Part shown: in pieces, positions 42,897-55,247 of the stretch
How positions within the stretch are numbered: position 1 is the stretch's first letter
Layout: each line of letters starts with the position of its first letter
Source: Jatrophihabitans cynanchi
Lineage (GTDB): Bacteria; Actinomycetota; Actinomycetes; Mycobacteriales; Jatrophihabitantaceae
Direction: 5' to 3'
Assembly (NCBI RefSeq): GCF_027247405.1
Contig: NZ_CP097463.1
Coordinates: 2,232,001-2,296,000, forward strand
Length of the DNA: 64,000 nucleotides
Notes under the pieces: generated by a model
Database searches by the model: none
What the model was told of the DNA's origin: nothing
Seen by the model: the letters and a program-made list of their open reading frames with translations, nothing else
Program-made: the position numbers and the translations under genes

Positions 42897-43053
42897 TCGA
42901 ACCCACGGTGGCCATTAGCCACACACGCTTTCGAGTCTGAGTGGCGGGGACCGCGCGGGATCGTAGGCCGGCGTTTCCGCCGGGGCGGCTGCTTCGCGGC
43001 CCTGCGCGATACCTCACGACATCGGGTGAAACTGAAACTGAAACTGGTACGAC
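42897..43053. repeat. Island repeat copy A (tRNA-Ser-derived left part)
   Basis: The segment begins TCGAACCCACGGTGG and contains CACACACGCTTTCGAG, i.e. the minus-strand T-arm and anticodon-loop bases of a tRNA-Ser(CGA) 3' half. It runs on through a GC-rich part to tandem AAACTG steps at about 43028-43045. It aligns over its whole length with copy B at 44865-45021. The acceptor-end bases are degenerate here. It abuts the NmrA remnant on the left and the mazEF-1 region on the right. Confidence 0.75.
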
Positions 43054-43114
43054 GGACCGCATGGTGGCGGCCGGCCATCGGAGGTCCGCGAGGTCTGTTC
43101 GCAGCCGATTGACG

Positions 43115-43453
43115 CTAGAGGTCGAAGATCAGCGCCAGCGTCTCGCGCAGCTGCCGCAGGCTCACCACGCCGACGTTGCCGAGGCGGGCACCAACCCGTC
43201 CGGTAGCGATCGCGCGCACATGCTGGCACTGCGCGGCCGAGCGCAGCGCCAGGCCGCTACCCGCGGCGGGCTCGATGACGACCTCGCTCGCGCTGGACCG
43301 GATCGTGCGTGTCAACGGGACCACCTGGACGACGTTCGGGCCGCCACGCAGGATCCGGTCCGCCGTCACCACCACGGCCGGGCGTACCAGGCCGACCTCG
43401 GAACCCTCGGGAAACCCGAGGTCCAGCTCGACGACGTCACCCCCCGTCAGCAC
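43115..43453 (-). CDS. MazF-family endoribonuclease toxin (copy 1)
   Basis: A 112-residue PemK/MazF-fold toxin: GDVVELDLG, RPAVVVTADR, VVQVVPLTRTIRS and QCQHVRAIATGRVG (the conserved RAI segment) are present. MazF toxins cut mRNA at short motifs. The GTG at 43453 aligns with the ATG of copy 2 and overlaps the antitoxin by 17 bases. By eye it is about 90% identical to copy 2 (11 differences in 112). Confidence 0.88.
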   Translation of the reverse strand: MLTGGDVVELDLGFPEGSEVGLVRPAVVVTADRILRGGPNVVQVVPLTRTIRSSASEVVIEPAAGSGLALRSAAQCQHVRAIATGRVGARLGNVGVVSLRQLRETLALIFDL

Positions 43454-43853: not shown

Positions 43854-44381
43854 TCATCCGCCAGTGCGACGGGAAGCCTCCGACGCGGCCTGCGACAGGC
43901 GGGCAACCTCGAGCCTGAGGAGCAGTTGCATCGACGCAATCGGCGGGGGCACAAACCCGGAGCGGAGGTAGAAGTTGCGTGCGGCGTCGTCGATCGCGTC
44001 GACCAACATCGCCCGGGCCCCGATGACCTCTAAGGACGCGGTGGCAGACCTTATCGCTTCACGAAGCAGGTCGGGCCCCCAGCCCTGGCCCTGATAGGCG
44101 CGATCAATGGCAAAGCGTCCCATGCGGATCACGGGCACGGGGTCAGCCGCCCGTCGCGCGATCTCGGCTGGGGCGTCTTGCCGACTGACCGATCCAGCCG
44201 ACAAGCAGTAATAGCCGGCAATCACATCATCGTCCAGCAACAAGTGCGTCACTGCGGCGCGCGAGTCCATACTCTGGCGGGCTTGAGTGGTCAGCCAGCG
44301 GTTGAGGCTGTCATGACCACAGTCGAACGCCTTGCGTTGCTCTCCCGACGGGTTGACCTCGTCATAGCGACGCAGCCGCAT
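43854..44381 (-). CDS. GNAT-family acetyltransferase toxin (TacT/AtaT-like)
   Basis: A 175-residue GNAT enzyme. FDCGHDSLNRWLTTQARQS at the start, VIAGYYCLSAGSV in the middle, the acetyl-CoA motif AYQGQGWGPDLLREAI and FYLRSGFVPP at the end are the signature of tRNA-acetylating toxins. It follows a DUF1778 antitoxin by 11 bases, the standard TacAT order. It would acetylate charged tRNA and block translation. Confidence 0.9.
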   Translation of the reverse strand: MRLRRYDEVNPSGEQRKAFDCGHDSLNRWLTTQARQSMDSRAAVTHLLLDDDVIAGYYCLSAGSVSRQDAPAEIARRAADPVPVIRMGRFAIDRAYQGQGWGPDLLREAIRSATASLEVIGARAMLVDAIDDAARNFYLRSGFVPPPIASMQLLLRLEVARLSQAASEASRRTGG

Positions 44382-44392
44382 ACCGCGAGCAG

Positions 44393-44665
44393 TCAGCGTT
44401 CGATCCGCGAGGGCCGCGAGAACAGCGACACCAAGGCCGGGTCAGGCTCGGCAGGCTCATCAAGGATGGCCACGAACCTGTTCCACGTCTCGACGTCGAG
44501 GTCGAAGTGACGCTGGTCAGCGAGCACGTCGTGAGCGCGCTCCACAGCCGAGCTGGTCAGGAACTCACTCACTGACTGCCCCAACGCCGCCGCCGCCTGC
44601 CGCAGGAGCGCATCGTCGTCGGCGTTGAGCCGCAGGTTCAAACGCGCACTCTTCGTGGCAGGCAT
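44393..44665 (-). CDS. DUF1778 (TacA-like) antitoxin
   Basis: A 90-residue RHH antitoxin. KSARLNLRLNADDDALLRQAAAALGQSVSEFL is the DNA-binding region and VETWNRFVAILDEPAEP the C-terminal toxin-binding part. Start at ATG 44665. Operon with the GNAT toxin. An upstream palindrome (44705-44723) is a candidate operator. Confidence 0.9.
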   Translation of the reverse strand: MPATKSARLNLRLNADDDALLRQAAAALGQSVSEFLTSSAVERAHDVLADQRHFDLDVETWNRFVAILDEPAEPDPALVSLFSRPSRIER

Positions 44666-44704
44666 GACAACTCCTTGAACGAACGGCCGCACCCTGGCAG
44701 TCGT

Positions 44705-44845: not shown

Positions 44846-44849
44846 AGGG

Positions 44850-44904
44850 CGGTGGCGGTGGGATTCGAACCCACGGTGGTGTTACCCACACACGCTTTCG
44901 AGTT
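44850..44904 (-). pseudogene. 3' fragment of tRNA-Ser(CGA), candidate attachment site
   Basis: On the minus strand, CTCGAAA (anticodon loop, CGA), a variable arm, the intact T-arm GTGGG-TTCGAAT-CCCAC and the acceptor arm CGCCACC followed by G are present. The 5' half is missing: upstream bases cannot form the acceptor or anticodon stems. A 3' tRNA half is what an integrating element carries or leaves as an att site. Confidence 0.7.
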
Positions 44905-45097: not shown

Positions 45098-45931
45098 CTA
45101 CGGCGCCGACGCCAGGCTCATCAGCCGCTCGGTCAGCCGCTGCTTGAGGCCGTCTCGACCCTCGCCGTTGTTCAGGTACGTCAACGTCCGAATGGCGCGT
45201 AGGTCGAAGGGAACGTCGTCCATGGACTGCGTGATCTGGATGACCTCCCGACCGAGGCTGTGCGCGATGCCCGTCTCGTAGAAGACGTTCGGGTTCTTGC
45301 CGCTGAGGTCGGCGATTACGATGCGTGAACGCCAGATCAGGTTGATCACGTCATCCATGATGTGGGCGTTCACCCATATGTCGTCCGCGCGGAAGCACCG
45401 CATACGCGCTGCGGCGACCGCCTCCTGAAGCGAGGTGTACACGGTGGCAAAATCAGTGGCGAATGGCATCATCACCGCGACGAGGTCAGGCTCTGTTGGA
45501 AGTTCCGTCGGTAGCCGGAAGACCTTCGGCCCTAGCGTGGGCCCGAGTATCGATTCGTGGACGACCGCATAAAGGTCGACGTCTTTGACGGCCCAGTGGG
45601 TGCGATTGAACTCCCATCTGTCGATTTGAAGCGCTTGAGCCAAGTCCTCGATTCGAGATGTGTCGATCTCCGGGAGCCCAGGAGTGGGAACGAACCGAAA
45701 GCGGTAGAGACCTCCGGTCAGCGTCAGATCTTCTACATGTCCCACGCGCGCCACCTGGCGCGAGCCGCCGTCCTGTACCTCTGGCATCAGTAACGTCGGC
45801 AAGTTGCGAAGGCGCGCAGGATCGACCGCGCCGGACGGCGCGATGTACTGGAGTATCGCGTTGTCGGTGTACTCGACGACGCGGTCCGGCGACGCCTGGC
45901 CACTGGTGAAGCCGACAATCAAGTTGTACAT
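45098..45931 (-). CDS. TIR-like / nucleoside deoxyribosyltransferase-like putative defence protein
   Basis: A 277-residue cytoplasmic protein. The C-terminal half (about 148-256) has DLVAVMMPFATDFATVY, CFRADDIWVNAHIMDDVI and IVIADLSGKNPNVFYETGIAH, with Glu219 as a candidate catalytic residue; this Rossmann-like fold is shared by TIR-like and nucleoside 2-deoxyribosyltransferase-like proteins often found in defence loci. The N-terminal half (about 1-135; FRFVPTPGLPEI, WEFNRTHWAVKDVDLY) is a separate domain I do not recognise, perhaps a sensor. Function is inferred from fold and island context only. Confidence 0.65.
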   Translation of the reverse strand: MYNLIVGFTSGQASPDRVVEYTDNAILQYIAPSGAVDPARLRNLPTLLMPEVQDGGSRQVARVGHVEDLTLTGGLYRFRFVPTPGLPEIDTSRIEDLAQALQIDRWEFNRTHWAVKDVDLYAVVHESILGPTLGPKVFRLPTELPTEPDLVAVMMPFATDFATVYTSLQEAVAAARMRCFRADDIWVNAHIMDDVINLIWRSRIVIADLSGKNPNVFYETGIAHSLGREVIQITQSMDDVPFDLRAIRTLTYLNNGEGRDGLKQRLTERLMSLASAP

Positions 45932-46162
45932 GGGCTTGAACCTCCCATGATCATGAGACTCCGCGAACCTACATCAAGAGTTCGGCCGTAGCACTGAACT
46001 GCGCACTTCCTGTCGGGCCGACGGCCGGCTCAGCGAGTTCGGTCCCCAGCGCCGCGCCGTGACCGTCGCAGCAGCCGAACTCACCGTCTATCGTCGTCGG
46101 CAACATCGGCTATCGGCGCCGACCCCTGAGCATCCGTGTGATCGATATGCGCGGAGGAAAAA
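45932..46162. other. Intergenic region without recognised features
   Basis: No supported gene or RNA was found. It should hold the promoter of the minus-strand TIR-like gene and possibly that of the small plus-strand ORF at 46163. Base composition is somewhat lower in GC than the core region. Confidence 0.5.
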
Positions 46163-46399: not shown

Positions 46400-47146
46400 T
46401 CAGCCACCTTCAGCAGGCGTCGGGATGTCTGCCCTCCGGTACACCACGAGCACCGCCTCACACCACGACCCCGGCGGTAGTTGCCCGCCCTTGATGACCA
46501 ACTGGCGTCGAGCGCCGAAGACGACGAGACCGATTCGATGCAAGCCATCGAGCCCATCTTGAAGTGAGCGTTTTGCCTGACGTACGGCTGTCATGCCTTG
46601 GTCGATGACGTCATCGCTAATCTCACCCCAGTCTCGCGCCAGGTCGAGGAAGGTGTCGGCTTGGTCGATCTCCTCATCCGAGCCGTCCTCCGGTGATCGG
46701 AGCCGGTAGGCCTGTGAGTTGGCCACGACGTCCCAGATCGCGGCACCGTTGGCAAGAGGCGCCAATTCGATGGCGCCCCCGTCGGACGGATCGACGATCC
46801 GAATCGGTTCAGGCTCGGATGCCCCGAACTTGTCTGCAGCCCATCGCTCGTGTTCCGCCTTGATCGCGCGCAGCCGTTCGGCGGTGTACTCCTGCGGCTG
46901 GTCGTCGACGCGTTTGTGGTCAACTTTGCAGAGCAGGATGAGATTGTCGTAGCTATCGGTCATGTCAGCGGCGAGCACGCCCCCGCGCGGGCCAATGGTG
47001 GATCGGGCGGCGATGTGGGCTTCGTCACCGACGATCGATTCGCGGTCGGTAGTTGTGCTGTCCGCAATGAGGATGCGCTTGCAGATGGCGCACGAGTTAT
47101 GCGCGCGAGCCCAGAGCACCTTGCGGTCGTGATCGCTGATCGCCAC
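46400..47146 (-). CDS. HNH endonuclease domain protein
   Basis: A 248-residue protein. The N-terminal HNH module has CAIC (Cys19, Cys22), GDEAHI (His44), YDNLILLC (Asn68, Cys73) and DHKRVD (His77). The rest (about 100-248) is an unrecognised domain with IWDVVANSQAYRL and an acidic helix. Such HNH fusions are frequent in anti-phage islands. Start ATG 47146. It lies between the TIR-like gene and a membrane protein, all minus strand, but gaps of about 160-470 bases argue against one operon. Confidence 0.8.
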   Translation of the reverse strand: MAISDHDRKVLWARAHNSCAICKRILIADSTTTDRESIVGDEAHIAARSTIGPRGGVLAADMTDSYDNLILLCKVDHKRVDDQPQEYTAERLRAIKAEHERWAADKFGASEPEPIRIVDPSDGGAIELAPLANGAAIWDVVANSQAYRLRSPEDGSDEEIDQADTFLDLARDWGEISDDVIDQGMTAVRQAKRSLQDGLDGLHRIGLVVFGARRQLVIKGGQLPPGSWCEAVLVVYRRADIPTPAEGG

Positions 47147-47303: not shown

Positions 47304-48206
47304 CTACGCGCCATACAGACGGCGGGCGAACGCCAGGGCCGCGCCCGCGTCATACCAACCCTTGTTGCGAAGGTGGTTCTCCCAATCCATCTCGTCGAGC
47401 CGTGAAATGGCGATCTGGTAACCGAGGTCTTCCGGTGGCAGCACATGGGTTTCGGTGAAGTACCAGCCATCGCGTCGCTCGATGATCCGCCGCAGGGTCC
47501 CGCGATACCCCATCAGCTCTTGTGCGCGGAGCCGAGTGACGTCCACAAGCATCCCCGCGAGCTGTTCAACCGATTCGGTCGGGTCGTTGAGACCGACCCC
47601 AAGGTCGCCGCCGGCGTTGCGCACGGCTTGGACCAACTGCTGGAAGAACTCCGCGGTCGGGGTGCCGGCGCTCCAGGGGTGCATCGAGATGATCGTGCCG
47701 TCGTCTTGTTCCAGCTGAACAGTCACATCGTAGTCGCGGGTACCGAGTACGAACCGGTAGTGCAGATCCGTCTCCCACACCGGGACACGCACACCCGCGG
47801 GGGTAAGGACGTCGACGTCGGTAGCGTGCCGCAAGGCGATGAACAGCGATTCACGTGTCGGCGCGGTCACCAGCCTTCGGTACAAATCGAGCTCGTCCTC
47901 ATGTTCGGCTTGCTGGCGTGCCAAGAGGGTCTGTCGGATCTGTTCCAGTGACTGCTGAGTGCGTTCCGCTGTATCCATCGCCGCCTGTGATGTAGCACGA
48001 GCTTCGTCAACTCCGCGCTCTATACGAGCAAATCCGGAACGCAGGCGGGTCAATGCGAACTCGCCCGGGATCAGCAGCAGTATCACGACACCAACGTTGT
48101 CCAGGGTTGCCGACAACCACGGCGCAGAAGAGCTGACAAGCCAGGAACAAAGCAGCATCGCGCCGCCCAGGGCTAGCACCCCGACAACGAACGCGCGACG
48201 GCTCAC
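47304..48206 (-). CDS. Hypothetical membrane protein with coiled coil and cytoplasmic domain
   Basis: A 300-residue protein with two N-terminal transmembrane helices (about 5-22 and 32-52), a coiled-coil stretch (SQAAMDTAERTQQSLEQIRQ, about 72-91) and a large soluble domain containing VWETDLHYRFVLGTRDYDV and a C-terminal NHLRNKGWYDAGAALAFARRLYGA. No family recognised. Start GTG 48206. In the island context a membrane-associated defence role is possible but unproven. Confidence 0.65.
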   Translation of the reverse strand: MSRRAFVVGVLALGGAMLLCSWLVSSSAPWLSATLDNVGVVILLLIPGEFALTRLRSGFARIERGVDEARATSQAAMDTAERTQQSLEQIRQTLLARQQAEHEDELDLYRRLVTAPTRESLFIALRHATDVDVLTPAGVRVPVWETDLHYRFVLGTRDYDVTVQLEQDDGTIISMHPWSAGTPTAEFFQQLVQAVRNAGGDLGVGLNDPTESVEQLAGMLVDVTRLRAQELMGYRGTLRRIIERRDGWYFTETHVLPPEDLGYQIAISRLDEMDWENHLRNKGWYDAGAALAFARRLYGA

Positions 48207-48422
48207 CCGCTCATTCTCCCGTCCGCATTGGACAGGCAATGACGCGCGGTTTGACGTGCGGGTCGGGTGAGGGTTACCTCGACGGCTCGACGCCATCGAA
48301 CGGATTCCGTGGTCTCCCGGAAGCAACGCGGGCGAGTTGGGTACTAGGCAAAGGCTCGTGCTCGGGCGTCACCATCCGTGCGTCGTGGTTGGCACCGCAC
48401 AACAGAGGATCTCGCGGCAACT

Positions 48423-48508: not shown

Positions 48509-48554
48509 GCTGCTGGCGTGGCCAGCAATCCGACGTTCGCGCAGCCGATCGAGG

Positions 48555-48893
48555 CTACAGATCGAAGATCAGGGCCAGCGTCTCGCGCAGCTGCCGCAGG
48601 CTCACCGCTCCGACGTTGCCGAGGTGGGCACCGACCCTTCCGGTGGCGATCGCTCGCACATGCTGGCACTGCGCGGCCGAACGCGCTGACAGGCCGTTAC
48701 CTTCGGCGGGCTCGATGACGACCTCGCTTGCGCTGGATCGGATCGTGCGTGTCAACGGGACCACCTGGACGACGTTCGGACCACCCCGCAAGATCCGGTC
48801 CGCGGTCACCACGACGGCGGGGCGCACCAGGCCGGCCTCCGAACCCTCGGGAAGCCCGAGATCCAGCTCGACGACGTCACCCGCCCTCAGCAT
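48555..48893 (-). CDS. MazF-family endoribonuclease toxin (copy 2)
   Basis: A 112-residue toxin with the same motifs as copy 1 and 11 differing residues, mostly in the segment after VVIEPA and near the N-terminus. ATG 48893 overlaps the antitoxin by 17 bases. Keeping two near-identical intact copies in one island suggests a duplicated cassette. Confidence 0.88.
   Translation of the reverse strand: MLRAGDVVELDLGLPEGSEAGLVRPAVVVTADRILRGGPNVVQVVPLTRTIRSSASEVVIEPAEGNGLSARSAAQCQHVRAIATGRVGAHLGNVGAVSLRQLRETLALIFDL

Positions 48894-49285: not shown

Positions 49286-49286
<1 letters not shown>
49239..49286 (+). CDS. 15-codon leader ORF coupled to hsdM
   Basis: GTG 49239 starts VTALTGAEPRGEVGD and ends TGA at 49284-49286, overlapping the hsdM ATG as TGATG. 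A near-perfect AGGAGG lies 5 bases upstream, whereas hsdM itself has only a weak GGAG-like site inside the leader. The arrangement predicts translational coupling of hsdM to the leader. Confidence 0.55.
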
Positions 49287-50891
<1,605 letters not shown>

Positions 50892-50899
<8 letters not shown>

Positions 50900-52058
50900 G
50901 TGGGCCGAAACAACGCTCGGGGCCGTCTGCGGCAAACCTCAGTACGGGGCGATAGCCAGTGGCTCAGATGATCCTGTCGGCCCACTCTTCATCCGCCAGA
51001 CCGACATCACCAGCGGCCGGGTGGATTGGTCAACCGTGCCCTACTGCGATCTTGCGCCCGATGAGTTCGATAAGTACGCAGTGGCACGAGGCGACATTCT
51101 CATCTCCCGACTGGGTGCGGGCGTTGGTAACGCCGCAACTGTGCGAGAGCCTCAGGACGCTGTGTTTGCTGGCTACCTGGTCCGATTCAGGGTCGACCCA
51201 GCGCAAGCCGTTGGTGAATACGTTGGCTATCTACTCCAGAGCGCGGCCTGGAAAGAGCATGTCGAGGGCTTTCGATCCGGGGCAGCACAGCCAACCCTAA
51301 ATGCGAAGCAGATGGCGGCATTCTCGTTTCGACTCCCTTCTTTGAGTGAGCAGCGGCGGATTGCGGGGGTGCTCGGCGCGTTCGACGACCTCATCGAAAC
51401 CAACCGCAGCCTGATGCGGCTCTTGTCGGCGGCGATGGGCGCCGCCTACAACGGTGCTTCGTCACGGGCGAAGGAGAGCGGTGAACTCCGTGAGTTCGTC
51501 GCGAGCGTCTCGCGTGGCATCGGACCGATGTACTCGGACGCGGCGGGTTGTGTGGAAGTCCTCAACCAGAAGTGCATCCGGGATGGCCGCGTGAGTCTTC
51601 ATGCTGCCCGCAGAATGACGCCACGCAGCGTTCGAGCAGAGAAGATCGCCGAGCCGGGCGATACTTTGGTGAACTCGACTGGTGTCGGAACGCTCGGCAG
51701 AGCCGCAAGGTGGATGGGCGAAGCGCCGATGCACGTAGATTCACACGTCTCGGTCGTCAAGGCTTACCGACAATCCGAATCAGGATGGGTTGCTCGAGCC
51801 TTGATCGAGAGCCAAGAAGTGATCGAGGGACTCGGATCGGGCTCAACTGGACAGACTGAACTGTCGTCCGAGCGGCTCCTGTCGCTGCGCCTCCCGATAC
51901 CCAGTGCAGGTACACGATCAAGGCTAGGAGGCTCGTTCGACACGATCGATGGATCCGTCGAGTCCCTGCAAGGAGAGATCGCGAATCTGACCCGGGTGCG
52001 TGATGAGCTGCTGCCGTTGTTGATGTCCGGCAGGGTGCGGGTGAGGGAGGTGGCGTAG
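50892..52058 (+). CDS. hsdS: Type I restriction-modification specificity subunit
   Basis: A 388-residue protein with two target-recognition domains. WAETTLGAVCGKPQYG opens TRD1, SLSEQRRIAGVLGAFDDLIETNRSLM is the first conserved helix, and the C-terminal helix (FDTIDGSVESLQGEIANLTRVRDELLPLLMSGRV) closes TRD2. Lower GC and different codon use than hsdM and hsdR are typical of rapidly exchanged specificity genes. Target sequence unknown. Confidence 0.94.

Positions 52059-55247
<3,189 letters not shown>

Follow-up and report, generated by a model that had tools for sequence, protein, structure and literature searches.

The DNA analysed here (the window) is a stretch of 64,000 nucleotides from Jatrophihabitans cynanchi. 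It contains a gene for a two-domain protein, composed of an N-terminal domain (N-domain) and a TIR/deoxyribosyltransferase-like C-terminal domain (C-domain), together with the features listed in Table 1. A pattern search for att copies placed this gene about 200 bp inside the likely border of an island, marked by a 55-bp copy of the 3′ end of tRNA-Ser(CGA). Further downstream are a second copy of the tRNA 3′ end, at 47 kb, and the intact tRNA, at about 65 kb. All three share one orientation, and the arrangement is most simply read as a composite integrative island, the gene lying just within one of its borders. A degenerate copy of the same tRNA at approximately 42898–42939 suggests that an earlier insertion may have occurred farther to the left.

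Together with its HNH neighbour, the gene is bracketed by the two MazF/PemK-like toxin genes. The HNH parts that this neighbour matches are those of CBASS SAVED-HNH and endonuclease effectors; the rest of the protein gave no match and no SAVED domain was seen. A reading made from the sequence alone had described the gene as flanked by island repeats, toxins, an HNH protein and restriction-modification (RM) genes, and all of these are present, the toxins including a TacA-GNAT pair and the RM genes being of type I.

Table 1. Positions in the window of the gene, its parts and the surrounding features
Feature	Position	Strand	Remarks
MazF/PemK-like toxin genes (two)	43100-43399 and 48540-48839		90% identical over 300 nt
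TacA-type antitoxin and GNAT toxin-like partner	43854-44692	-
55-bp copy of tRNA-Ser(CGA) 3′ end, likely att repeat	~44848..44902	+	near border of ~65-kb island
Two-domain protein, 277 aa	45098..45931	-	ATG start
C-terminal domain, predicted TIR/deoxyribosyltransferase/DNPH1-class N-glycosidase fold	45101..45496	-	residues 146-277
Codon of E219, candidate catalytic glutamate in NPNVFYE	45275..45277	-	kept in 57/58
N-terminal module, putative swappable sensor/adaptor	45533..45931	-	residues 1 to ~133
Signature RTHWAVKD	45581..45604	-	residues 110-117; H, W, A, K, D kept in all 110 sequences, some of the loci having been picked by this motif
Likely ribosome-binding site GGGAGG	45941..45946	-	9 nt upstream of ATG; direct reading
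HNH protein	46400-47146	-	first ~100 residues match HNH parts, PADLOC E 1e-24
340-aa protein with N-terminal hydrophobic stretch	47304-48326	-	no Pfam, NCBIfam or PADLOC match
Type I RM operon (methyltransferase, specificity and restriction subunits)	49286-55247	+

Architecture of the protein and its C-terminal domain

The fusion of the two domains was sought elsewhere and is present in many other genomes. Relatives carrying both domains are about 40% identical to the query on proteobacterial plasmids and up to 63% identical in Actinomycetota, and alignment of the query with 57 full-length relatives (58 proteins) showed conservation far above chance for an unused frame, indicating that the 277-aa open reading frame is real. 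The genome of the window holds one copy of the gene, as determined by a genome scan, and likewise a single copy of the N-domain. The whole protein was modelled by AlphaFold with a mean pLDDT of 93.3, and the domain limits taken from the model are 1 to about 130 for the N-domain, a linker to about 145, and 146–277 for the C-domain. The sequence-only reading had proposed a separate, unrecognised N-domain of residues 1–135; the separate domain was borne out, but its end was set too far by a few residues. The motifs MPF, RADD and ADLSGKNPNVFYE on which that reading relied were all found in the translated frame.

Several lines of evidence agree on the class of the C-domain, so the label TIR/deoxyribosyltransferase-like is accurate. 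The PADLOC model of a CBASS TIR effector matches residues 175–269 (E 1.9e-9). Foldseek returned nucleoside deoxyribosyltransferases and TIR domains intermixed (E ~1e-4 to 1e-3), and VIA-align gave Z 14.6 for DNPH1, 14.1 for TIR-STING, 13.8 for MilB and 13.6 for SPARTA TIR. Scores of Z 12.7–14.6 to both the TIR and the deoxyribosyltransferase branches indicate a Rossmann-like fold. Across the 58 aligned proteins, M154, P156, F157 and Y218 are kept in all, E219 in 57, and R181 and D183 in 54. In the profile, FYEAGIAHTLGR is paired with YELGRAVALGK of Rcl/DNPH1, so that E219 falls on the Glu of the Tyr-Glu pair, consistent with the glutamate expected in the TIR/deoxyribosyltransferase/SLOG class and with the earlier choice of E219 as the catalytic candidate.

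The resemblance to DNPH1/Rcl, MilB and the nucleoside 2-deoxyribosyltransferases (PF05014-like) thus lies in the fold and in a conserved Glu in the same motif. However, the C-domain scores 13.7 bits against Pfam Nuc_deoxyrib_tr (PF05014), below the curated cut-off of 28.8, and the query differs from these enzymes in its fused second domain and its island context. Assignment to a housekeeping deoxyribosyltransferase was rejected because the Pfam score is far under the cut-off and the context is mobile. The likeness to the CBASS TIR effector PDLC00733 concerns residues 175–269, whose counterpart in that 388-position model is its C-terminal TIR part; only about 95 C-terminal positions match, whereas the N-domain has no counterpart in PADLOC. 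Membership of CBASS was rejected, as no SMODS CD-NTase match occurs anywhere in the genome of the window.

Exchange of the N-terminal domain among effectors

The N-domain alone, modelled from 110 sequences, gave a compact fold of about 130 aa (AF2 pLDDT 92.6, pTM 0.87). Residues E51, H112, W113, A114, K116 and D117 are invariant across these sequences, R17, E20, T22, P45, G64, R110 and L120 are nearly so, and the motif takes the form HWA[VI]KD, although the invariance of HWAxKD in this set partly reflects the fact that loci were picked with a motif pattern. In a first alignment of 22 sequences gathered without the pattern, too divergent for a pattern search, R17, P45, E51 and W113 were invariant. 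Outside this small core the domain varies widely.

Searches of Pfam, NCBIfam and PADLOC returned no match to the N-domain, matches among PDB sequences were at chance level, and a fold search of BFVD gave nothing below E 0.03. The P2-phage family phrog_4962 includes it as the front part of an unnamed protein. In the literature covered, mostly outside subscription journals, searches for a sensor shared by FRG, TIR, SEFIR and caspase proteins turned up no description of this domain. Within the libraries compared, the N-domain and the architecture are new, as had been proposed, but the C-domain type is not, since PADLOC already lists it as a CBASS TIR effector.

A tblastn search with the N-domain alone matched proteins annotated as TIR, FRG, 'nucleotide-binding' or hypothetical. 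The C-termini of about 130 N-domain proteins clustered into eight groups, namely the C-domain type of the query (69), FRG (34), TIR (13), CAP12-type TIR (10), SEFIR (4), a toroid with a possible HEPN tail (2), caspase (1) and Abi_C (1); the proportions are biased, as the genome sample was picked by one motif pattern. FRG, TIR_2, CAP12-PCTIR_TIR, SEFIR, Peptidase_C14 and Abi_C were above the Pfam cut-off in the partner C-termini, and the toroid/HEPN assignment was below it. To avoid circularity, a hidden Markov model was trained solely on N-domains of the query architecture. The result showed that this model detects the N-domain in all seven other groups (best E 1.6e-40, worst 5.9e-17), with zero matches to reversed decoys. 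PADLOC matches of the swap partners (PDC-S15, PDC-S35, bSEFIR, caspase and AbiJ) were confined to their C-termini. The N-domain is an exchangeable module placed before immune effectors and is not bound to one of them. In a tree of 118 N-domains, parsimony gave 11 effector changes against a minimum of 7, a rough count given the few columns and many open forks of the tree; effector types clustered on this poorly resolved tree, and its starred branches, taken alone, are compatible with a single origin for most groups. A Pfam scan of the collected proteins showed no fusion of the N-domain to an NTPase or other sensor domain. The caspase fused to the N-domain in Asticcacaulis (locus L077, 2943–5009) is likened by NCBIfam to the EACC1-associated type.

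TIR and CAP12 domains are of the NADase class, and the fold of the C-domain also includes housekeeping nucleotide hydrolases. The FRG defence candidates PDC-S15 and phrog_4962, some of which bear the same N-domain, differ from the query in their effector, FRG, which has been assigned to the ART superfamily and is regarded as a possible NADase (PMC9503650). Most partner effectors thus probably act on NAD, which makes NAD(P)+ the leading candidate substrate of the C-domain; given the breadth of its fold, this is a guess drawn from the swap partners. The caspase and Abi_C partners show that the module is not restricted to NADases.

Distribution and neighbouring genes

With one degenerate motif, 213 relatives were recovered from the genome collection and 36 from viral contigs. 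From the 213 loci, 80 were kept, 59 from Pseudomonadota, 12 from Actinomycetota and the others from five further phyla plus one unassigned. A search of the viral contigs with a single protein found nothing, but an alignment-based search did find copies. The N-domain was present in none of 60 other genomes of the same family and order as the genome of the window and in one of the 395 further genomes sampled across the phylum. This near-absence in relatives suggests that the gene was most likely acquired horizontally, and it is not the pattern of a housekeeping family with a conserved non-island context, which was looked for.

Copies of the N-domain also lie on plasmids and in prophages. The N-domain-FRG version occurs in 59 of 5,426 Escherichia coli genomes. 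In the sole such region inspected (NZ_AP022173.1; locus L175, 5001–7424), it is located inside a P2-like prophage. One flank holds portal and terminase genes, with an IS21-type element between, and the other holds replication genes and a reverse transcriptase gene that is convergent with the N-domain-FRG gene. On a Lactococcus plasmid (locus L019, 2953–4405), a stand-alone N-domain protein of 188 aa directly follows an unknown 291-aa gene, and this pair is possibly a split version of the system.

Among the annotated plasmid neighbours of the relatives are AbiE pairs, RM genes of types I and II, Drt2, caspases and TIR proteins, and the PADLOC models matched among 119 neighbour open reading frames include those of Lamassu, SoFic, Pycsar cyclase, HmaB, PD-Lambda-3 and PARIS AriA; these defence genes are a raw count without a matched control. 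A constant partner gene was sought across 116 loci and none recurs beyond close orthologous contexts. An obligate operon partner was therefore rejected, and the gene can be regarded, as first proposed, as a stand-alone unit.

Proposed function and what the N-terminal domain may sense

The two domains with their predicted folds, the conserved catalytic-type residues, the placing of the N-domain before several effectors, and the mobile, defence-rich, partnerless context are best explained by a single-gene, horizontally acquired abortive-infection (antiphage) protein. We consider this explanation likely; the mode of activation, substrate and antiphage outcome proposed below are what we infer from it. 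Two domains in one protein without a recurring partner is the architecture of single-gene NADase-type abortive infection, and the exchange among effectors points to a sensing role for the N-domain. The N-domain would be a conserved, interchangeable input module that keeps the protein off until an infection-linked ligand is met. The C-domain would then be switched on, probably via altered packing or oligomerisation, and E219 would be used to cut the N-glycosidic bond of NAD(P)+ or another nucleotide, whose destruction would stop growth before the phage matures. On the whole, the observations of the sequence-only reading were confirmed; its interpretation was partly supported, the type of protein it proposed being the most likely one.

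As to the trigger, one possible if tentative reading is that the N-domain is a divergent PUA-like (EVE/YTH/ASCH) reader of base modifications in the DNA or RNA of a phage, coupled to a suicide enzyme in place of a nuclease. PUA-superfamily domains are known as modification sensors fused to nucleases in modification-dependent restriction (PMC7897488, PMC7641849). In VIA-align, the top match of the N-domain was the EVE structure 2hd9 (Z 6.0, rmsd 3.7, 106 aligned), accompanied by 2gbs, 1zce and 2eve and, further on, by YTH, THYN1 with 5mC DNA, EVE-HNH VcaM4I, ASCH and the McrB N-domain, aligned end to end. The leading Foldseek rows were all YTH domains, and by eye the strand order agrees, the final strand-helix RTHWAVKDxDLxxVL corresponding to RLSVQPVxxxEWxxIL in EVE. 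However, Z is below 8, Foldseek E values are 0.05 or worse, the structures compared by VIA-align were drawn only from Foldseek candidates, mostly YTH chains, and HHalign against the EVE and ASCH profiles gave a probability of <1%. Structure comparison thus weakly suggests a PUA-like fold, as a lead. The possible likeness in fold to the EVE-HNH and McrBC systems (Z 5–6) finds no sequence support in the EVE and ASCH profiles, and the effector of the query, unlike theirs, is not a nuclease.

Equally plausible, and held just as tentatively, is that the N-domain recognises a protein rather than nucleic acid, either one made by the phage, such as a structural protein, or a host factor altered by infection. 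A precedent is the single-gene TIR defence SpbK of B. subtilis (PMC12847820), which is reported to be triggered by the phage protein YonE and, similar to the query, joins an N-terminal part to a C-terminal TIR-class NADase, but the matches of the N-domain profile to PDB sequences included no SpbK chain. Wide variation outside the invariant core is expected of a direct sensor. On the other hand, R17, E51, H112, W113, K116 and D117 are kept across phyla and effectors, and such a polar and aromatic core would be easier to reconcile with a conserved ligand or a structural function than with a protein interface that changes rapidly.

That the N-domain is instead a homotypic adaptor, like effector-associated domains, recruiting effectors to a separate genomic sensor, would accord with one domain type carrying many effectors and with the stand-alone Lactococcus copy; it is unlikely, and less plausible than either the reader or the phage-protein sensor because the proteins stand alone, with no constant partner, no sensor or NTPase fusion and one N-domain copy in the genome of the window. 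A housekeeping role, as a hydrolase of nucleotides or nucleosides that has gained a binding domain and takes no part in defence, is very improbable despite the DNPH1 and MilB-type hydrolases among the closest folds, given the patchy distribution, the plasmid, prophage and island locations and the fact that caspase, FRG, TIR or Abi_C can stand in place of the C-domain.

The fullest form of the PUA-like proposal, in which the N-domain would be a hitherto undescribed immune input module, shared widely, that reads modified phage nucleic acid and plugs into eight effector types, is rather doubtful; if true, it would define a 'modification-triggered suicide' class distinct from modification-triggered restriction. 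The unnamed domain itself is found at more than 200 genome loci by one pattern and precedes eight C-terminal kinds, mostly known or candidate immune effectors. Its trigger, once identified, would explain a set of orphan single-gene defences, including FRG in E. coli P2-like prophages, and its exchange among effectors offers a direct test case for sensor-effector modularity in bacterial immunity.
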